A stretch of 49,384 nucleotides of DNA. Origin: Ferrithrix thermotolerans DSM 19514. GTDB taxonomy: Bacteria > Actinomycetota > Acidimicrobiia > Acidimicrobiales > CAIXPF01. Each line of letters begins with the position of its first letter. The stretch's first letter is position 1. The stretch spans positions 1 through 49,384 of the forward strand of contig CAMDQT010000024.1 in assembly GCA_945906305.1 (NCBI GenBank), read 5' to 3'. Positions 16,450 through 29,756 of this stretch are shown in pieces. The notes under the pieces are model-generated. The model did not search any database. It was not told the DNA's origin and worked only from the letters and a program-made list of their open reading frames with translations. The translations under genes were made by a program, and so were the position numbers.

Positions 16450-19185
<2,736 letters not shown>

Positions 19186-19192
19186 GGACCTG

Positions 19193-19198
19193 ATGTTA
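19193..19198 (-). promoter_or_regulatory. -10 box TAACAT, leaderless aceE
   Basis: On the minus strand TAACAT ends seven bases before the aceE ATG, with CAGGTCC between; no Shine-Dalgarno sequence. Confidence 0.5.
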
Positions 19199-19401
19199 TG
19201 ACCGGCGCAGCGGCCATTTCTGCGATCCGGGCCGGCGACCGGCCCCACGCCAGTCCGATCACACAGATTTCCCCCGCCCGAGGGAGCGAGCACCGCGGGC
19301 GAAGGACCGGCGACCGAGCAGATCGGTGCCTCCCGGTGAGCGCCTCAATACCCTCCGCGCTCGACCATGAACCGCGACTCAAAACCTGGCATTCTCTCTC
19401 G

Positions 19402-19782: not shown

Positions 19783-19843
19783 GCGGCACCTGACACCGCG
19801 ACCGCGGTCGACACTGCAATGTGTGGGGGACCGAGCGCCATTC

Positions 19844-19861
19844 GTGGGGAATCTGCCCCAC
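19844..19861. terminator. Short hairpin between DUF3040 and moxR genes
   Basis: GTGGGG-AATCTG-CCCCAC forms a 6-bp stem 62 bp after the DUF3040 stop. There is no T run, so it may be a weak terminator or a regulatory site. A separate 12-bp palindrome, CGACCGCGGTCG, is at 19799-19810. Confidence 0.3.
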
Positions 19862-20049
19862 TACAGCGTCGAACATTGCGGCCCTGCGACGGTTTGGCCC
19901 CACGACCGGTTCCACCAGTGCCGTGGCGAAAGGGACGGCTACCGTCATGGGGGGCTGAAGAGGCGACGCTGTCCGACCATCGTGTCGGGCCGTACAGCCA
20001 ACCAGCACACGCTCGGCGGCGTGGTGAGCAAACAAGTTCAGGTGCAACG

Positions 20050-21096
20050 GTGGGCATAGGGCAACAAGGGGTCGACGTCGTTCTCGGCGACACGAACAAC
20101 GGTCATAGCACCGCGCCCACCGAGCAGGAAGTCCTTCGCTTCGCCACCAGCTTCGACCGGCTCGCCGCCAACATCGCCAAGGTCCTCAAGGGCAAGCAGG
20201 ACGCCATCCGCCTCGCGCTCACCTGCCTTTTCGCCGAAGGGCACCTGCTGCTCGAAGACGTCCCCGGGGTCGGCAAGACCACCATGGCCAAGGCCATCGC
20301 CAACTCGATCGACGGTAGCTGGCAGCGCATCCAGTTCACCCCCGATCTCCTACCTTCCGACGTCACCGGCGTGCAGATCTTCAACCGTGCCCGCAACGAG
20401 TTCGTGTTCCATCCCGGCGGGGTGTTCGCCAACATCGTCATCGGCGACGAGATCAACCGGGCGTCGCCCAAAACCCAGTCCGCGCTGCTTGAGGTCATGG
20501 AGGAACGTCAAGTCACCGTGGACTCGACGCCGTACCTGGTCCCGCGACCGTTCATGGTGCTCGCCACCCAGAACCCCGTCGAGCACGAAGGCACCTACAA
20601 CCTGCCCGAGGCGCAGATCGACCGGTTCCTGATGCGGTTGTCCATCGGCTACCCATCCATGCAGGACGAGCTGGCGATCATCTACGGCAACGTCAGCCCG
20701 GCCGAGCAAGTCTGCCACCTGACCCCGGTGCTCAGCGCGGGCGAGGTCCGGCGCATGATTGCCCTCACCGAACGCATCTACATCGCTCCGGCGCTCGCCC
20801 AGTACATCGTGCACTTGACCTCAGCCACGCGTTGTCTGCCCGAATTGCGCCTCGGAGTCAGCCCACGCGGCACGATCGGCTTGGCCCGGGCGGCGCGGGC
20901 CTATGCCGCAGCAGCAAATCGCCCTTTCGTCACTGCGGATGACATCAAAGAGCTGGCCCCGCTGGTGCTGGTCCACCGCATGATTCTGACTCCGGAAGCC
21001 GAGTTGCGGGGACGAAATTCTTTGGAGTTGCTGCTGAACCTGCTCCAGGTCGTGCCCGTCCCGCAGGCGCGCTTCGAGGGACCTCGTCACGGTTAG
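20050..21096 (+). CDS. MoxR-family AAA+ ATPase
   Basis: A 348-residue MoxR ATPase. Walker A is EDVPGVGKTTMAK (Lys76), Walker B is IVIGDEINRA, and sensor and helical regions follow with ATQNPVEHEGTYNLPEAQIDRF and the C-terminal LGVSPRGTIGLARAARAYA. MoxR proteins act as chaperone-like ATPases on partner proteins carrying von Willebrand or DUF58 domains. GTG at 20050 is the only usable start near the conserved domain; the frame extends to 19819 but without family similarity. A DUF58 protein and a transglutaminase-like membrane protein follow with gaps of 12 bp and -4 bp, so this is one operon. Confidence 0.92.
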   Translation: MGIGQQGVDVVLGDTNNGHSTAPTEQEVLRFATSFDRLAANIAKVLKGKQDAIRLALTCLFAEGHLLLEDVPGVGKTTMAKAIANSIDGSWQRIQFTPDLLPSDVTGVQIFNRARNEFVFHPGGVFANIVIGDEINRASPKTQSALLEVMEERQVTVDSTPYLVPRPFMVLATQNPVEHEGTYNLPEAQIDRFLMRLSIGYPSMQDELAIIYGNVSPAEQVCHLTPVLSAGEVRRMIALTERIYIAPALAQYIVHLTSATRCLPELRLGVSPRGTIGLARAARAYAAAANRPFVTADDIKELAPLVLVHRMILTPEAELRGRNSLELLLNLLQVVPVPQARFEGPRHG

Positions 21097-21108: not shown

Positions 21109-22251
21109 ATGACTCGTTTCGGTCGCGCCGCCTTTGGCCTGGCCCTGGCCACGGCGGGAAGTGGGGTGGCGCTGCGCTACCGCGAGTTGATCCTCATCGG
21201 TCTCGCCACCTTGCTGGTGTTCGTCACGGCGGTGTTGTGGACGCGCTCGAGGCCCCGGCTGAGCGTGACGCGCATCCTGCAACCCAACCGGGTGGACCAG
21301 GGCAGCGTGGCCATCGCCACCCTGGCCGTCACCAACGAGTCTCGCCGGTCCAGCCCAGCAATGGTCGCCCTGGAACGATTCGGCGGCAGTGGGGTCTCCG
21401 TCTCCATCCCACGACTCGAGCCGGGCGGATCTCACCATCGTCCTTACCGGCTTCCCACCGAGCGGCGCGGGGTCTATCAGGTAGGCCCGTTGACCGTGAG
21501 CCGATCCGATCCCTTCCATCTGATGCGCAGCGGACAAGACCAAGTTCCCACCGACACCCTGTGGGTCCATCCCAAGCTATGGCAAATGTCGCCCTTTCCC
21601 AACGGCACCACCCGCGATCTCGAGGGGCCGACATCGGGCGAGGCGCTTCACGGCGGCATCGCCTTCCACTCCTTACGCGACTACGTGCTCGGCGACGACC
21701 TCCGACTCATCCACTGGAAGTCCTCGGCCCGAACCGACCGAACGATGGTTCGGCACAATGTGGACACCTTCCAGCCCCGCACCCTGGTCGTGTTCGACGT
21801 GAATCGTTCGCTCTACGAGGAGGAGGAGGACTTCGAACACGCCGTGCAGGTGGTGGCGTCGTTGATGGTGGCTAATGCCGCGCACAACTACCCGATCCGA
21901 CTCCGCACCACAGCCGGTTTGGCGATCGGTTCGGAGACCGGGGACCGCAACGAGCAAATCTTGGACCATCTCGCCGCCATCACCACCACGGCAGACGCTT
22001 CGCTGGCCCGTTTGGCCCCCTACATCGCCAGTGAACGGGGCGGGTTCTCGCTGGCGGTGATCACCGGCCGAGCCGGTGTCCGCGAGCTTGCTTCGGTGGG
22101 GCCACTACGCCGGCGTTTCTCCAACGTCACCATCGGTCGAATCGGGACCCAAGGCCCGGGCGAAATCTTCGAACTGCCCGGAGCGGTATTGATCAATGCC
22201 CGAACGGCCGTCGAATTTGCCGAAGCCTGGACCCGCAGGATCCGACGATGA
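21109..22251 (+). CDS. DUF58-domain membrane protein
   Basis: A 380-residue protein with an N-terminal hydrophobic hairpin (about 7-20 and 26-43), a beta-rich middle, and the DUF58 signature at about 185-225: FHSLRDYVLGDDLRLIHWKSSARTDRTMVR, followed by LVVFDVNRSL, the start of a VWA-like fold. DUF58 proteins are the standard partners of MoxR ATPases. AGGAAG lies upstream of the ATG. The last codons overlap the start of the next gene (ATGA). Probably a membrane-associated client or adaptor of the MoxR ATPase; no enzyme activity can be inferred. Confidence 0.9.
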   Translation: MTRFGRAAFGLALATAGSGVALRYRELILIGLATLLVFVTAVLWTRSRPRLSVTRILQPNRVDQGSVAIATLAVTNESRRSSPAMVALERFGGSGVSVSIPRLEPGGSHHRPYRLPTERRGVYQVGPLTVSRSDPFHLMRSGQDQVPTDTLWVHPKLWQMSPFPNGTTRDLEGPTSGEALHGGIAFHSLRDYVLGDDLRLIHWKSSARTDRTMVRHNVDTFQPRTLVVFDVNRSLYEEEEDFEHAVQVVASLMVANAAHNYPIRLRTTAGLAIGSETGDRNEQILDHLAAITTTADASLARLAPYIASERGGFSLAVITGRAGVRELASVGPLRRRFSNVTIGRIGTQGPGEIFELPGAVLINARTAVEFAEAWTRRIRR

Positions 22252-24527
22252 AGCGACTTCTGTTGGTCGAACTGCTGGCGGTATCGGTCCTGACCCTGCT
22301 CGCTGCACTTGGCTTCGGTCGCGTGTTCGCCACCTCCGGGTACCTGCTGCCAGCTCTCGGAGCCGTGATCGTGCCGACGCTCCTCGCCGTCGGCGGCAAG
22401 TACCGCAAGGCCAGCGCAACCGCCACGGCGTTGTGCTCTCTCGGGGCGTTCATCGTCTACACCTGCTACGTCGTGCTCGGGTCCAGCACCGCGAACCTGA
22501 TGCCCACCATGACCACGGTGCAGCAGCTAGCCGAGGGGATCACCGCAGGATGGGCCAACCTTCTCAATGCCAGCCTTCCTGCCGCGGTGGAACCCAATCT
22601 CCTCATCGCCGTGCTCGCCCTGGTCTGGGCTGCCGCCGCCGCGGGCGCCGAATTCGCTCAGCGCGGGCACGGTGCGGCCGCGCCGGTGCTGCCAGCACTG
22701 GCGTTGTACCTCGGCGCGCTGGGCTTCGGGGCCTCCCAACCGGCGGGAACGCTGTTGCTCCCCGCCGCCTTCAGCGCCGCCCTGCTGGCGGTGTTCCTCG
22801 TACACGCCAACCGCGGGGCGATCATCGAGCCGGCCTCCGAAGCCTCCGCCGAACGCTGGGGTCCGCACCGACCACTGTCGGTGAAGACCTCCGCCACCCA
22901 GTGGATCGCCCTCGGGCTACCGGTGATTGCGGTGACGACGCTGTTGGCCACCCTCATCACCGCCCGACTACCGGTCGGTTCGAGATCATTCGATCCGCGG
23001 AGATTTCGCCCGCAGGAGGTCGTCTTCAACGACGTGGCCAGCCCGCTGGAAGGCCTCAAACGCGAGCTCACCTCCTCGGTGCTGGACCCATCCATCCGCT
23101 ACCAGGTGGCTCTTGACAGCGGTTCTTGGCCCGCGACGGTAGATCGGCTCCGGCTCACGGTGCTCGACCATTTCGATGGTGCCGTCTGGTCCTCGAACGC
23201 TCGATACAACCGAACCGGTTCCGTCCTTCCGAAAGGACCCGACATAGGGGTGCGGACGGAACAGGTGCGGCTGACGGTGCGGATCGTCTCGCCGCTGGCC
23301 GGGCCCTGGCTACCAGCAATCGACCGACCGGTGAGTGTGAGCGATGCCGACGGCCGGCTCTCGCCGGCCCTCGACCCCGTTACCGGCGTCTTGATCCACC
23401 TCGGTGGCAATCAAACCGGGCTGTCATACCAAATGGTATCCATGGTGCCACGGCCGACACCGCAGCAGCTCACCGCCTTGAACCGTCCCGTCATCAGCGA
23501 AGAGACGAAAGAACTGCTCGACGTGGCGAACATGCCGTTATCGATGCGGCAACTGGCCGAACGGCTGACCGAAGCCCGCGCCGGACCCGTGCTCGCCTCG
23601 GACTCCGCCTACTCACGACTCGCCATGCTCCAAGACAGCCTTGCCGCCCGTTACCGCTATGACGAGGACAGCCCGTCAGGTACCTCCTATGGTCGACTCT
23701 CCACCTTCCTCACCGGGGAAGGTTCGGGGTACGCGGAGCAGTTCGCCAGCACCTTCGCGGTCATGGCCCGATCCCTCGGCTACCCCAGCCGGCTCGCCGT
23801 GGGCTATCTGCTCACCCACATCGAGCCCGATACCGGGACCACGGTCCGCCTCAGCGCCATTACGAACCGACAGGCCCACGTATGGCCCGAGGTGTTGCTC
23901 GGGGACGGTTTGTGGGTGGCGTTCGAACCAACTCCGCTGGACAAGGTCACCGATTCACCGCCTCCCCGTGACCCGAGAACCGAGGCGCTGTCGGGCGCCA
24001 TGGTGGGCAGCGAGACCCCTGCGAGCAGCGGGGCTTCCCCCGCTAGCACCGAGAACAGGACCGATCTGGCCAACCGCGCCCTACCGGCGCTGGCCCTGTT
24101 TGGCGTCACCATCGTGCTCGGCCTGGCACTGGTTCCAGCCGGTCTGATCATCCTCAAGCGCCTGAGACGTCGGCGGCGGCGGCGTTACTGCTCCACCTCG
24201 GACCAAGTGCTCGGTGCCTGGTCCGAGGTCACCGATCGCCTCCTCGAGGTCGGCGTCGACGTAACCCCGACGATGACCGCGAAGGAAGTTCTGGCCATCA
24301 CGGCCCCAAAGATCTCCGACAGAGCCGCCCAAGGGCTCTCGGCCATGGTCCCCCTAGTCGGCCTGGCGTTGTATGGCCCCGAACCGCCCACCCCGACCGG
24401 GGCGGCCACGATGTGGGGACTGGCCGACGCCTTCTGTGTCGAGATCCTCGACGGCTCTCGCTGGTATCGCAGCGCGGTGGCGCGGCTCAACCCCAAGCCG
24501 TTGCTCGCTGGCCTCACGCGTCGTTGA
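22248..24527 (+). CDS. TgpA-like transglutaminase-fold membrane protein with Cys-to-Ala active site
   Basis: A 759-residue protein with about seven N-terminal transmembrane segments (1-250), a periplasmic linker, a transglutaminase-core domain (about 460-570), another transmembrane helix around 620-640 and a cytoplasmic tail with RRRRR followed by a DUF4129-like domain. The active-site segment reads GSGYAEQFASTFAVMARSLG, where the family has GYCEQFA: the Cys position is Ala496. His544 (RQAHVWPEV) remains, and Glu560 stands in WVAFEPTP. It therefore should not catalyse thiol-dependent transamidation or proteolysis. The start overlaps the DUF58 stop. Its last 14 bp overlap the convergent PKD gene. 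Confidence 0.9.
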   Translation: MKRLLLVELLAVSVLTLLAALGFGRVFATSGYLLPALGAVIVPTLLAVGGKYRKASATATALCSLGAFIVYTCYVVLGSSTANLMPTMTTVQQLAEGITAGWANLLNASLPAAVEPNLLIAVLALVWAAAAAGAEFAQRGHGAAAPVLPALALYLGALGFGASQPAGTLLLPAAFSAALLAVFLVHANRGAIIEPASEASAERWGPHRPLSVKTSATQWIALGLPVIAVTTLLATLITARLPVGSRSFDPRRFRPQEVVFNDVASPLEGLKRELTSSVLDPSIRYQVALDSGSWPATVDRLRLTVLDHFDGAVWSSNARYNRTGSVLPKGPDIGVRTEQVRLTVRIVSPLAGPWLPAIDRPVSVSDADGRLSPALDPVTGVLIHLGGNQTGLSYQMVSMVPRPTPQQLTALNRPVISEETKELLDVANMPLSMRQLAERLTEARAGPVLASDSAYSRLAMLQDSLAARYRYDEDSPSGTSYGRLSTFLTGEGSGYAEQFASTFAVMARSLGYPSRLAVGYLLTHIEPDTGTTVRLSAITNRQAHVWPEVLLGDGLWVAFEPTPLDKVTDSPPPRDPRTEALSGAMVGSETPASSGASPASTENRTDLANRALPALALFGVTIVLGLALVPAGLIILKRLRRRRRRRYCSTSDQVLGAWSEVTDRLLEVGVDVTPTMTAKEVLAITAPKISDRAAQGLSAMVPLVGLALYGPEPPTPTGAATMWGLADAFCVEILDGSRWYRSAVARLNPKPLLAGLTRR

Positions 24528-27500
24528 GGCGGAGGTCCTCCACCACAACCACGTCAACGACATCGAACTCGAGCGTCAGCGTCGACGAGCCCATCTCGTT
24601 CGACACAGTCAGGGTGACCGTCAACGCGCCGACGCTGGCCGGTGTGACGGTGACATCGGGGGTCGTGGCGATGTCGGTACCGATGGTCCATAGCCAGCTG
24701 GTGGCCCCGCCAGTGGAGCAATCGGTGATGGTCACCGGCTGGTTCACCATCAGCGCCACCGGACTCGTCCCGGCCACTACCGCTTCGCCTGACGCCGAGA
24801 ACGCCGCCTCCACCGAAGCGACTTGCGGCGCGATGACGATTTCACGCTGCGCCACGGCACAATTGCTCGGATCGTCCTGCCAGCACACCACCATCGTCAC
24901 CGTGTATGACCCGGCGACGTCGAATACGTGCTGGACCCCCCGGGACCCTGCTGGGCCAGAAACGGGCGTCTCGGCAAAGTAAAAAACGGGCGGGTTCAAC
25001 GGATAGGGAGACGGTGTCGTGTCGCTGAAGCTGATCGAGTGGCCGGCGACCAATACCTCACTGCCGGCAGACTGGGCCGTGAAGGAGGCCTCAGGAGCCC
25101 CACGGGGCAAGGCCTCGATCACCACCAACTCGGTCGCGACGCTTTGTCGTCCGTTGCGGTCAGTCACCGTCAGGACCACTTCGTAGCGCCCAGGCTCCTC
25201 GTACAGGTGCGCCGGGGGGCTCTGGCCATTGGACGGGGGCGACCCATCACCGAAGTCCCAGCTCCAACCAAGCGGCGTGCCCGACGATCTATCGATGAAT
25301 TGCACCGATTGACCCACCACAGGGCTGACGGGAAGGAAGTTGAACGCGGCCACCGTGTCGACCGGGGGCGGCCCGACATGGACCGTACCGATCACCCCTT
25401 CGAAGCGCACACCATTGGACATCGTCAACGTCACGGAGAAAACACCAGTCCTTTGATAGGTGTAGCTGGGCTCACGTTCGGACGAGACGCCCCCGTCGCC
25501 GAAGCTCCACGCGTAATCGCCGTCGCCTATCGAAGTGTTCACGAAACGCACCGGCTCGCCCACGATCGCCGGATCGAGAGCCGTCGCCCCAACCGATTGG
25601 CCGAAGCTCGGCAACAACGGGGCTGGCGTTAGCTCATCGGCAACGACCACGGCGACTACATCGAAGGTTGCACCCACGGCGTTGGATGCGGTCAGCCGAA
25701 CCACGTAGGTTCCCGGCACCCGGAACACATGCTGCACGAAGGCACCCTCATCGGTCGGGGAACCGTCCCCGAAATCCCACACCAGCGATGTCTGACTACC
25801 GGTGGTGCCACTGACGAATCGAACCGACCGGTTGAGTTCGACCACCGTGGCGTCGACCGGCTCGGCGATCTTGGCCTGCGGTGCAGTGAATGGCGGCGCC
25901 ACCCCGATAATCCGGCTCAACGTTGTCGAGCCCGCCGCGTTGCCCACCGACAACCGCACCGTGACCTCGCCGGTGGAGCCGAACACGTGCAACACCGACG
26001 GCGCTGTCCCCACCGCGCCGTCTCCGAAGTCCCACCACCACGAGGTCGGTCCGCCCGCCGTGCGATCGATGAAGGAGACCACGTCGCCCACCGCAATCGG
26101 TGCACCCTCGACGCCGTCGACAGTCCAGGAGAAATCGGGGTGCAGCACCGCAGCAGGTTCGGCCACCCGGAGCGTGGCTTCAGTGGAATGGGTGCCCACA
26201 CCGTTGCGGACAGTCAGACGTAGGACATAGGCCCCCGGCAAGGGGTAGCGGTGCGGTTCAGGCGTGGACATGGTCGACACGGCACCATCGCCAAACTCCC
26301 ACAGCCACGACAAGATTGGGGTGTCTCGGCCGCTCGTGCTGCGATCGCTGAGTTGCACTGCTTCTCCCACCACCGGGGAAGGCGGATCCCAGCTGAAGTT
26401 GGCCTCCGGTGGCATCACCTGCGTCGGGTCCCGCACGAACAGCGTCAAAGGAACCGTGGTATCGGACTGCCCAGCAAAGCTGAACACCGTGAGGGTCACC
26501 GTCCATGGGCCGATAACCGGCAGGGTGCGGGTCAGCGCGCGGTCAGCACTTGTCGTCATGTCCCCTAGCGGCGACCCAAAGGTCCACTCCCAACGTTCGA
26601 TCGGGCCGGTCGAGGTATCAACGAAACTCACATCGGTCGTTGTGGTTGCGTTGCCAGGCAACGAATAGGAAAACTTGGCGACTACGGGATCGACGCTCGA
26701 CGCCGAACTCGATGGAATGGGCAACAGCGATACCGGTAGCGGCTTCGGAACCGGTCCGACGCTGATGACCCGTGGGCCGCGCCCGGAGGGGGACCCAGCC
26801 GACGAACCTTGGTCCTCTCCCGAGCCGATGCGTGTACCGTCGCCGAACCGCGAGGCACTGGTGGCGGCCTGACGGTCGTCGGGGTCGGAGCCATCGACGT
26901 ACTCTTCGCCCTCTCCGCCGGGGTTGACGCCGGACACCGAGTCCAACTCTTGCTTGTCCACGACAACGGTTACGCCCGCGGCGGACAGCACTCCGGCCTT
27001 GGATCCCTCGAGGTCGTTGAACCACAGATGCCCGTTCGTCACCAACAACTCGAACCGATGGCCGACCGGCACCGCGAAGCGAAGGTCGACGGTGCGTTCG
27101 ATCCGGTTGTCGACCCCGTTCACGACCAGAACTTGAGACCGGTTGAACACCGGCACGAAGAGCTGGCCACCGCGCACCACCGGAGAACCAAAGCTGTCCG
27201 CCGCGCCCTGGCGGTCCTCGCTCAGCGCCAGCTTGGCGCAGCGGTGGCGTTGAAGGTCCGCGGTGAGCAGTTCACCGGTGTCTGCCACCAGCGTGTAGGC
27301 GAGTTGGTGGTGTTCCCCGGCGAGACTGCCCGCAACCTCCAAACGACCCGACAGGACGCGGTTCTGATGACACAGCTCTTCGCCGGGCTCGCCATCGTCA
27401 CCGAGGCGCACGACAGCACCTCCGTGGGAGTCCACCAGCACCGGCCGATCGGCCACCAGGGCCAGACCCCCCGTCGACGCAGGCTCGGAGATCTGGGTGC

Positions 27501-28077
27501 GCCGAACCTCCCCCGAGGCGGCGTCGAAGCGGATCAGCTCGCCGAGGCTGGCATCGTAGGCCCACAGCCGACCGCCCCGGTCCACGACGGCGGAGATCGG
27601 TTGCTGGGCGCTGACCGCCGTCTCATAGCGGGTAGAGAGTGTGGTCGAATCGAGCGCAACCAAGCGTCCTTGCGCCGTGTCAACGGCGAAGGCCGCGTCA
27701 TCGTTGCCGACCAAGAACAATTCCGAGCCAGGGCTAGTTAGGTCACGCCGGGCGTGAAAGTTGTGGGTGGCGCCGTCGATCCGGCCCACTGTTCCCGTTG
27801 AACGGTTCAGAACCACCGCGTTGCTGCCCATCTGAGCAATGGCGAGTTGCTGCTGGGGATCGGCCACGGTTACCACCCCAGTCACGTCCCTCGACAGCGC
27901 GTTGGCCTGCACCACTACCCCCGAGGGCGGATCGATCAACCACACGGAGCCTCGGGTGGTGGCCACATCGTTCACCACCGTGCCCGCGGTGCGGAGACCG
28001 ACGGCCAGCACCGATCCCACCACCAGTGCCAGCAGGGCGCGTAGCAGCCAAATGCGCATGATCTTCCGGGATGGCAA
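24514..28077 (-). CDS. Membrane-anchored beta-propeller plus eight-PKD-repeat surface protein
   Basis: An 1187-residue protein. A basic N-terminus and hydrophobic helix (about 10-30) form a signal anchor. Residues about 35-380 hold repeats such as GSVWLIDPPSGVVV and GRLWAYDASLGELIRFDAASGEVRR, typical of YncE/Vgb-like beta-propellers. A Gly/Ser/Asp linker (about 385-455) precedes eight PKD-like domains spaced about 85-95 residues; five have the full FGDG motif (near 593, 682, 767, 857, 941), the first and last two are divergent. There is no C-terminal sorting signal. The start is TTG at 28077, with GGAGG seven bases upstream; ATG 28059 is the alternative. It faces the MoxR-DUF58-TgpA operon and overlaps its end by 14 bp. 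Probably an extracellular scaffold or adhesin. Confidence 0.88.
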   Translation of the reverse strand: MPSRKIMRIWLLRALLALVVGSVLAVGLRTAGTVVNDVATTRGSVWLIDPPSGVVVQANALSRDVTGVVTVADPQQQLAIAQMGSNAVVLNRSTGTVGRIDGATHNFHARRDLTSPGSELFLVGNDDAAFAVDTAQGRLVALDSTTLSTRYETAVSAQQPISAVVDRGGRLWAYDASLGELIRFDAASGEVRRTQISEPASTGGLALVADRPVLVDSHGGAVVRLGDDGEPGEELCHQNRVLSGRLEVAGSLAGEHHQLAYTLVADTGELLTADLQRHRCAKLALSEDRQGAADSFGSPVVRGGQLFVPVFNRSQVLVVNGVDNRIERTVDLRFAVPVGHRFELLVTNGHLWFNDLEGSKAGVLSAAGVTVVVDKQELDSVSGVNPGGEGEEYVDGSDPDDRQAATSASRFGDGTRIGSGEDQGSSAGSPSGRGPRVISVGPVPKPLPVSLLPIPSSSASSVDPVVAKFSYSLPGNATTTTDVSFVDTSTGPIERWEWTFGSPLGDMTTSADRALTRTLPVIGPWTVTLTVFSFAGQSDTTVPLTLFVRDPTQVMPPEANFSWDPPSPVVGEAVQLSDRSTSGRDTPILSWLWEFGDGAVSTMSTPEPHRYPLPGAYVLRLTVRNGVGTHSTEATLRVAEPAAVLHPDFSWTVDGVEGAPIAVGDVVSFIDRTAGGPTSWWWDFGDGAVGTAPSVLHVFGSTGEVTVRLSVGNAAGSTTLSRIIGVAPPFTAPQAKIAEPVDATVVELNRSVRFVSGTTGSQTSLVWDFGDGSPTDEGAFVQHVFRVPGTYVVRLTASNAVGATFDVVAVVVADELTPAPLLPSFGQSVGATALDPAIVGEPVRFVNTSIGDGDYAWSFGDGGVSSEREPSYTYQRTGVFSVTLTMSNGVRFEGVIGTVHVGPPPVDTVAAFNFLPVSPVVGQSVQFIDRSSGTPLGWSWDFGDGSPPSNGQSPPAHLYEEPGRYEVVLTVTDRNGRQSVATELVVIEALPRGAPEASFTAQSAGSEVLVAGHSISFSDTTPSPYPLNPPVFYFAETPVSGPAGSRGVQHVFDVAGSYTVTMVVCWQDDPSNCAVAQREIVIAPQVASVEAAFSASGEAVVAGTSPVALMVNQPVTITDCSTGGATSWLWTIGTDIATTPDVTVTPASVGALTVTLTVSNEMGSSTLTLEFDVVDVVVVEDLRLNDA

Positions 28078-28289: not shown

Positions 28290-29756
28290 TCAGCTCAGCT
28301 CGGCCACGGCGCGATCGACCACAATCGAACGTCCCACCGCCTCCTCCGCGACCAGGCTGGCCATCGTCGCCGGATCGGTGCTACGAGCGAAGGTACGCGC
28401 GCCCTGTGCGGTCAACGCGGCGATGAGCGCAACCGTTGGCCCGTTGTGATCGTGCATGACTGTGTAGCCCTCGATAGTCGCCGGTCCGACGTGATCGCCA
28501 GTGACCTCCCGGGTCGGTGCCCGGTCGACCTCGGACTGCACATCCTCATGACGGAACCCGCCCGTTGGCGGCTCGGTGCTGTACAGGCCCATGGCGTGCT
28601 TGGTCACGTACCCGCCGTTCGCACTGCACAGACCGAGTTCGCCGGGGTGGCGGCGCAGCACCTGGGCCATGGAAGCGATCGAGTGCATCACGTAGTTGTT
28701 CAGTGGCCCGCCAGCGAAGGGCAGCCCGCCCGTCACCGTCAGCTGCCGATCCTCGGACAGGCCTAGCTCGGCCGCGGCGATCTGCACCGCGGAGGGGAAA
28801 CACGAATAGAGGTCGGCGTGGGCCACGTCACCAATTCCCACCCCGGCCAAGGACAAACAGCGCGCCCCTGCAGTGCGAATTGCGGGGGAGGAGTAGTAGT
28901 TGTCCCGGTTCGATATGAGGTAGGTGTCGTGGGCATCAGTTCCCGACCACGGAAACACCCAACGATCCCGGCTGATACCGAGGGCCTGCGCGGTGGCCAC
29001 CGAGCACAGGATCACCGCCGCTGCTTGGTCGAGGTCCCAATTGCTGTTCATCGACTTCGTATAGGGGTAGCCCACCAAGCGGTTGTCAGGGCTCGGGCTA
29101 GCAATCTGCTCCGCGGTCATCGGCCGTCGGATCCAGGCGTAGGGGTTGTCCACCGCAACCGCGTTGAAGCGGGACCACAACGCCGACACCCGCTCGAGGT
29201 GGCCGGCGACGCTTTCGCCGCGGTGGTGGCGGATGGCGGTCTCGAACATCGGGTAGACGTTGATAGGCGCCTCGAACCCGCGCTCCATCTCCAACCGGGA
29301 GCTCATGGTGACATCCGCGCCGATGGTCTCCGCGGGCGATGCCGCCGCATCGCTGGTGTAGGGAATGATCGCGCCCGCGCGCTTGGCCCGCCGACGGCTG
29401 TAAATGCCTTCGGCCCCAACGAGCACCACGACATCGAGTCGACCAGCTTCGATGTCGAGTGCGGACTGGTTGACCAGCGATTGGGGGGTATTGCCGCCGT
29501 CGTAGCTAAGCAGGGTCTGGCGGGCGGAAGAACCGATCCGGTCCGCCACGAGTCGGCCTGGATCGCGATAGGGCCAGGCGCCTTTCACCACCCGGACAGA
29601 ATCGACCTGGCGTAGCAGGTCGCGCGTTCCGGCATCGTCCGCGGCGCGCTGCACCGCCTCGACCATCATCGCCACGGGCTCGAGGGCGACGGCGGCATCC
29701 GCTGTCTTCTGCACGAACTGGCCAGCTCCAACCAGCACCACGGCACGCGGGTTCAT
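28290..29756 (-). CDS. Thiolase-superfamily protein lacking the nucleophilic Cys
   Basis: A 488-residue protein of the group usually annotated as acetyl-CoA acetyltransferase in actinobacteria (similar in plan to mycobacterial Rv1867, from memory). The thiolase core is visible in HADLYSCFPSAVQIAAAELG and GGLPFAGGPLNNYVMHSI, and the second-site Cys in LCSANGG is kept. The region that should hold the acylated Cys reads YDGGNTPQSLVNQSA (about 85-99) and contains none. The C-terminal 75 residues (ATIEGYTVMHDHNGPTVALIAAL) form an extra beta domain. It may bind acyl-CoA without classical thiolysis. The ATG has GAGGA five bases upstream. Divergent from the acyl-CoA mutase gene. Confidence 0.85.
   Translation of the reverse strand: MNPRAVVLVGAGQFVQKTADAAVALEPVAMMVEAVQRAADDAGTRDLLRQVDSVRVVKGAWPYRDPGRLVADRIGSSARQTLLSYDGGNTPQSLVNQSALDIEAGRLDVVVLVGAEGIYSRRRAKRAGAIIPYTSDAAASPAETIGADVTMSSRLEMERGFEAPINVYPMFETAIRHHRGESVAGHLERVSALWSRFNAVAVDNPYAWIRRPMTAEQIASPSPDNRLVGYPYTKSMNSNWDLDQAAAVILCSVATAQALGISRDRWVFPWSGTDAHDTYLISNRDNYYSSPAIRTAGARCLSLAGVGIGDVAHADLYSCFPSAVQIAAAELGLSEDRQLTVTGGLPFAGGPLNNYVMHSIASMAQVLRRHPGELGLCSANGGYVTKHAMGLYSTEPPTGGFRHEDVQSEVDRAPTREVTGDHVGPATIEGYTVMHDHNGPTVALIAALTAQGARTFARSTDPATMASLVAEEAVGRSIVVDRAVAELS

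Follow-up and report, generated by a model that had tools for sequence, protein, structure and literature searches.

Introduction

TgpA of Pseudomonas aeruginosa keeps a Cys-His-Asp triad, and its transglutaminase activity has been demonstrated, as set out in passages of PMC3507681. In Bifidobacterium, a gene named tgm stands at the end of the PFNA operon (pkb2-fn3-aaa-duf58-tgm), and tgm is described as an enzyme (PMC8430577, PMC6803598); passages of two further papers give its product as a predicted transglutaminase (PMC12607495) and as a transglutaminase (PMC10688814). The words "cysteine," "active site," and "inactive" are absent from the main text of the PFNA paper.

Dead transglutaminase domains are already known in bacteria. 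According to passages of PMC12239564, RloB, from Pseudomonas and Gammaproteobacteria, joins an inactive transglutaminase domain to seven membrane helices. Polymorphic toxins carry inactive transglutaminase domains that passages of PMC3482391 propose to be surface anchors acting through peptide binding, and passages of PMC4359373 describe LapG as a transglutaminase-fold protease that cuts the adhesin LapA.

Here we analyze a TgpA-type protein of Actinomycetota that shares with P. aeruginosa TgpA (6g49, 6g4h; PMC3507681) the same fold, a similar operon setting, and a membrane-anchored extracytoplasmic domain, but that has Ala where TgpA has its catalytic Cys. It resembles RloB, as presented in those passages, in that its dead transglutaminase domain is tied to the membrane, lies outside the cytoplasm, and belongs to an operon concerned with the envelope, whereas the RloB operon encodes a retropepsin-like protease and an ATP-grasp protein (PMC12239564). 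Like the polymorphic-toxin domains of PMC3482391, which sometimes lie beside bacterial Ig domains, it has lost the triad; there the domain is described as fused within a toxin, whereas here it is a separate operon protein. The LapG-LapD-LapA system of PMC4359373 offers the likeness of a transglutaminase-fold protein whose target is a very large adhesin on the cell surface, with the difference that LapG is an active protease. Toxin domains, RloB, and LapG are precedents for a receptor or holder, and the operon described below is absent from the passages on them.

Results

Alanine at the Place of the Catalytic Cysteine

The window (the whole stretch of DNA that was analyzed, 49,384 nucleotides) comes from an assembly of Ferrithrix thermotolerans DSM 19514. 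On its forward strand, at 22248..24527, it encodes a 759-residue protein that Pfam, hydropathy, an AlphaFold2 model, and Foldseek together point to as a TgpA-type pseudo-transglutaminase. N-terminal membrane helices are followed by an extracytoplasmic transglutaminase-like domain, a single C-terminal helix, and an Arg-rich tail. Pfam lists only TgpA_N (1.3e-22) and Transglut_core (9.4e-18; residues 452-561, 23601..23930), both of which pass the curated cut-off and which together mark the TgpA family (PF11992 + PF01841); the scan gave no match to PF06035 (LapG/BTLCP) or to the RloB-type domains, which we take to be those named Transglut_i_TM and 7TM_transglut. We know of no MoxR-DUF58 partner for LapG. 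NCBIfam assigned a family neither to this protein nor to the window's DUF58 protein.

The catalytic Cys-His-Asp/Glu triad is incomplete in this domain. As an earlier sequence-only reading had claimed, codon 496 is GCG (23733..23735), which puts Ala in the motif SGYAEQFAS where the catalytic Cys belongs, and His544 (23877..23879, in RQAHVWPEV) is retained in the alignment with orthologues. Glu560 (23925..23927) occupies the third triad place in that alignment; because 57 of 60 Cys-bearing homologues also have Glu there, Glu560 does not represent a loss. On these sequence grounds, the identification of the protein as a pseudoenzyme is well supported. A base-call error makes little sense as an explanation, since neither TGC nor TGT matches GCG at any of the three codon positions, and the identical Ala in four other assemblies rules out sequencing error. 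In the AlphaFold2 model, the pLDDT is a modest 64.8 for the whole protein and 70-85 for most of the core, and a predicted helix (residues 496-509) begins at the Ala itself. Foldseek ranked two structures of the P. aeruginosa TgpA periplasmic domain highest among PDB entries (6g4h, E 3.3e-11; 6g49, E 7.8e-11).

Each of the three remaining genomes of the genus carries an orthologue, as does one further genome of the family (G005), with identities of 58, 58, 47, and 40% to the window protein; the same search of family genome G004 gave no match. All four orthologues read GYAEQFA, and the Ala codon is GCG or GCC across the five own-family genes. The alignment with related genomes that the sequence-only reading had proposed, with Cys in close relatives as the result that would count against it, therefore returned Ala throughout. 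A loss private to one genome is ruled out by these orthologues and by the Cys-less clade described below. Another contig of the window's genome encodes a further TgpA, whose motif reads GYCEQFA and whose C-H-E triad is intact.

Cys-less TgpA Proteins in Actinomycetota

Homologues were drawn from surveys of 397 order genomes and 396 phylum genomes, in which part of the matches were read, and removal of 7 duplicates from 119 TgpA rows left 112. The full triad (C-H-E/D) is present in all 60 Cys-bearing rows of the alignment, but His plus Asp/Glu is kept in just 17 of the 52 Cys-less rows. The sequence-only reading had described a loss of the nucleophile only, and this holds for the window's family but not for the wider lineage, most members of which are also without the His. 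The residue at the Cys place varies (Ala 12, Ser 12, Arg 9, Asp 8, Pro 3, Glu 3, Thr 2, Gly 2, Gln 1). Ten scaffold residues (G478, G494, Q498, R508, P513, R515, G519, W546, E548, and W556) are near-invariant in both groups. Bit scores against an A3 profile were also tried as a separator of Cys and Cys-less proteins over the 397 order genomes and were dropped because the scores overlap.

Trees were built with the three catalytic columns masked. In the 112-row tree, one branch parts the 60 Cys from the 52 Cys-less rows (SH-aLRT 100). A careful 73-row tree gave the Cys-less clade (37 rows) support of 98/91 and recovered it in 98% of 200 bootstrap trees; a quick tree made without the mixture model joined two long branches, L042 and L221. 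When held-out rows were added, 38 of 39 Cys-less rows, including the window protein, fell into one clade (99/97), and the 39th, L036 from Labedaea, paired with the Cys-bearing L220 at 100/100. A single origin of every Cys-less protein was abandoned after this placement. In the trees, the Cys-less proteins thus make up an old, Actinomycetota-wide clade, with one main loss of the Cys and probably a second in Labedaea L036.

The MoxR tree (57 rows) and the DUF58 tree (49 rows) are each split by the Cys/Cys-less label at one branch, with support of 99. Because MoxR and DUF58 split as TgpA does, the whole operon appears to have been duplicated, and the simplest reading of the trees is that the Cys was lost in one copy and that both copies were long retained.

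Between two congeners, dN/dS was 0.20 in the Cys-less core, compared with 0.32 in the remainder of the same gene and 0.029 in the core of the Cys paralogue. By this measure, the dead domain is constrained, above the rest of its own protein and below an active site. The suggestion in the sequence-only reading that the substitution reflects selection rather than decay is upheld by the Ala in all four orthologues, by the lower dN/dS of the core than of the rest of the gene, and by the phylum-wide Cys-less lineage.

A Convergent Gene for a Propeller-Ig Surface Protein

The ORF list and Pfam place MoxR, DUF58, and TgpA in that order on the forward strand. The MoxR AAA+ ATPase (19819..21096) and the DUF58 protein (21109..22251), whose gene shares its last 4 bases with the start of TgpA, were identified by Pfam and belong to the Cys-less-type branches of their trees. 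The true MoxR start probably lies further in than 19819, because the MoxR of most neighbours is about 320-370 aa long. Convergent with the operon, on the reverse strand, lies a gene for a large surface protein of 1187 aa (24514..28077) with a signal-anchor helix, a many-stranded beta-propeller (26860..27981), and a region of PKD (Ig-fold) repeats (24517..26673), assigned from Pfam, a propeller search, and fold. The best PDB sequence match to the propeller is the archaeal S-layer propeller-PKD protein 1l0q (E 1.7e-11), which also matches the surface protein by fold (3.1e-13). The locus is flanked by two further reverse-strand ORFs, one of 947 aa (16450-19293), which we take to resemble pyruvate dehydrogenase E1, and one of 488 aa (28290-29756), presumably thiolase-like; the orthologous loci L032 and L033 are flanked by ORFs alike in size and direction.

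We surveyed neighbours within 8 kb of TgpA genes; genes were called with a script of ours, and window and locus proteins served as seeds for the domain models. The TgpA gene was called in 82 of 87 neighbourhoods (L112, L115, L127, L128, and L133 were left out). Of the loci with flanks of 5 kb or more to either side, 28 of the 33 Cys-less ones and none of the 26 Cys ones had an Ig-fold (PKD, Big_9, or fn3) neighbour; with the flank filter off, the counts were 32/47 and 0/35. In a held-out set, in which 39 of 40 loci could be classified (L203 could not), 3 of the 5 Cys-less loci had the Ig neighbour and none of the 34 Cys loci did (3/5 and 0/31 with flanks); the two Cys-less exceptions, L194 and L206, had none in the 8 kb around TgpA. 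As the Cys loss was one main event, or perhaps two, the linked loci in these counts are not independent tests.

Kinase genes neighbour 12 of the 33 Cys-less loci and FHA genes 13, compared with 0 of 26 Cys loci in each case, which suggests phospho-regulation at the loci that have them. A Pfam scan of 23 neighbour proteins confirmed the Ig, kinase, or FHA domains on many of them and named further domains. Y-family DNA polymerases often stand near the Cys-type loci (L137-L176), where they account for 18 of the 41 neighbours that are 400 aa or longer.

Profile comparison identified an N-terminal beta-propeller common to the PKD-, fn3-, and Big_9-type partner proteins (hhalign 99.9% and 99.3%), and the PKD-type propeller of the window matched the Big_9 type, Bifidobacterium included, at 99.3%. 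At E<=1e-20 the propeller occurs in 37 of 397 order genomes, 33 of which carry a Cys-less TgpA that was read; a read Cys-less TgpA is likewise present in 37 order genomes, and those without the propeller at this threshold are G011, G136, G210, and G213. In G268, G233, and G264, where the TgpA gene was unread, the motifs GTSEQFA, GSAEQFA, and GTPEQFA, respectively, lie about 5 kb from the propeller; in G327, no TgpA motif is present on the propeller contig.

The partner gene is not always adjacent. The loci of genus g30 (L100, L103-L106, L108, L109, and L051) are of an RDD type, with Arg for Cys and Asp for His, and they had seemed to be without a partner. In six of the eight RDD-type genomes, the propeller gene is in fact 12.3-12.6 kb upstream, in the same orientation. 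A photolyase gene is convergent with TgpA and adjoins it at six of the eight RDD loci. At L124 the propeller is about 4 kb off. At L110, L111, L113, and L116, DUF58 and the Cys-less TgpA are on opposite strands, and at L111 MoxR is opposed to TgpA as well; at L111 and L113 a PKD protein gene directly precedes TgpA in the same orientation. Across these four loci the partner gene shifts position yet remains nearby.

Comparison with the PFNA Operon

Within a set of nine Bifidobacterium genomes, tgm was present in seven. In all seven tgm products, Ser occupies the Cys place; the His place is taken by Glu, Ala, or Asp, and the acid place by His or Tyr. At the B. catulorum and B. pluvialisilvae loci, an Ig protein (Big_9 plus fn3, about 2000 aa), MoxR, and TgpA stand in a row. 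We read the bifidobacterial MoxR-DUF58-TgpA loci as the PFNA operon and tgm as a putative member of the Cys-less TgpA family.

The window and the PFNA operon both have MoxR, DUF58, and a Cys-less TgpA (tgm) of the same main clade, in that order. The window also has a gene for a propeller-Ig surface protein, with an N-terminal propeller homologous to that of the Big_9 type, but this protein has PKD repeats where the PFNA protein has fn3/Big_9 domains, and its gene is convergent and downstream. A further difference is that PFNA includes a kinase (pkb2) whereas no kinase gene lies within 8 kb of the window's TgpA gene. On the wider proposal given in the Discussion, the PFNA operon, now read as an enzyme-bearing host-dialogue system, would contain no transglutaminase activity.

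Discussion

The reading that we favor, at a probability of about 0.6, is that the pseudo-transglutaminase is a receptor or holder for the propeller-Ig surface protein, worked by MoxR and DUF58 and derived from a duplicated operon. It draws on what the sequences show: Ala496, a conserved loss of the Cys, purifying selection, retention of the fold, a separate operon ancestry, and tight linkage to the propeller-Ig gene. On this reading, the TgpA member of the duplicated MoxR-DUF58-TgpA operon lost its catalytic Cys early in Actinomycetota and has since been retained. Its extracytoplasmic pseudo-active-site groove, with cutting and cross-linking gone, would bind a peptide segment of the surface protein or an envelope ligand that the surface protein presents; the cytoplasmic tail may signal to DUF58 and the MoxR ATPase that the groove is occupied, and these two proteins could then take part in assembling, retaining, or remodeling the surface protein. 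The binding role that the sequence-only reading had suggested fits these data, and the adjoining propeller-Ig protein is its likely partner; that the groove binds this protein is something we infer. Several points count against a holder: the linked loci go back to one main event or perhaps two, the held-out loci L194 and L206 lack a nearby Ig neighbour, the RDD-group partner lies about 12.4 kb off, with the photolyase gene adjoining, the core of the dead copy is less constrained than that of the Cys copy, and the AlphaFold2 model is of modest confidence. We put at slightly under even odds the wider proposal of an Actinomycetota surface-protein machine, in which a dead transglutaminase would act as receptor for a co-inherited propeller-Ig adhesin and the PFNA operon would be one branch, without transglutaminase activity.

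The domain could instead serve purely as a scaffold within a membrane complex that also contains DUF58 and MoxR, and have a pocket that binds nothing. The retention of the entire operon and the free variation at the pocket's Cys place among the 52 Cys-less rows would both be expected of such a scaffold, but Gly478, Arg515, Gly519, Glu548, and Trp556 are invariant in the core, and a pure scaffold leaves the surface-protein linkage unexplained; we consider this explanation unlikely. We are more doubtful still that the dead copy regulates the active paralogue, pairing or competing with the cell's own intact C-H-E TgpA and thereby tuning its activity. In favor of this, the motif G[YF]C[EQ]QF occurs in 30 of the 34 order genomes with a Cys-less copy (a reversed-pattern control gave 0), and one more genome, that of L170, has GWCEQF. 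However, G[YF]C[EQ]QF is absent from G017, G038, and G087, a protein query found no second TgpA copy in six of the seven bifidobacterial tgm genomes, and the separate MoxR and DUF58 branches and different neighbours of the two operons point to parallel systems.

Altered chemistry, through another nucleophile or as a non-cysteine hydrolase, would be compatible with the His544 retained in the window's family and with the 22 of 52 rows that have Ser, Thr, or Asp instead of the Cys. It is very improbable, because Ala, Arg, Pro, Gly, Glu, or Gln could not replace the thiol, and because most of the lineage has lost the His and only the 17 rows noted above keep it with an acid. The weaker constraint on the core than in the Cys copy (0.20 versus 0.029) is what a decaying relic would show, but the Ala in four other assemblies, the intact ORF, purifying selection, and phylum-wide retention leave a relic or a sequencing error with a negligible chance, and the orthologues refute it.

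In the literature searched, which left most subscription journals outside its scope, we found no description of Cys-less TgpA proteins or of a dead PFNA transglutaminase, and the passages of PMC7159879, PMC8195603, PMC10318531, and PMC12067865 describe neither. Nor did we find there an old, phylum-wide paralogue lineage with its own MoxR and DUF58 that is tied to one kind of surface protein, as the lineage outlined here appears to be. Residue 496, or its equivalent, lets annotators tell enzymes from non-enzymes that share one name.

The genome of Labedaea rhizosphaerae holds three TgpA types side by side: A-H-E (L179), S-F-D (L036), and C-H-D (L180). A second Cys-less TgpA occurs in four genomes (G343, G238, G081, and G294, at L154, L155, L157, and L162), with D-E-D or D-E-E at the triad places and the motif AFDERYAA or GYDEQYAA. 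From these copies, the dead family appears itself to have been duplicated. At L154, L155, and L157, the second Cys-less TgpA is accompanied by kinase, FHA, and Big_9 genes.
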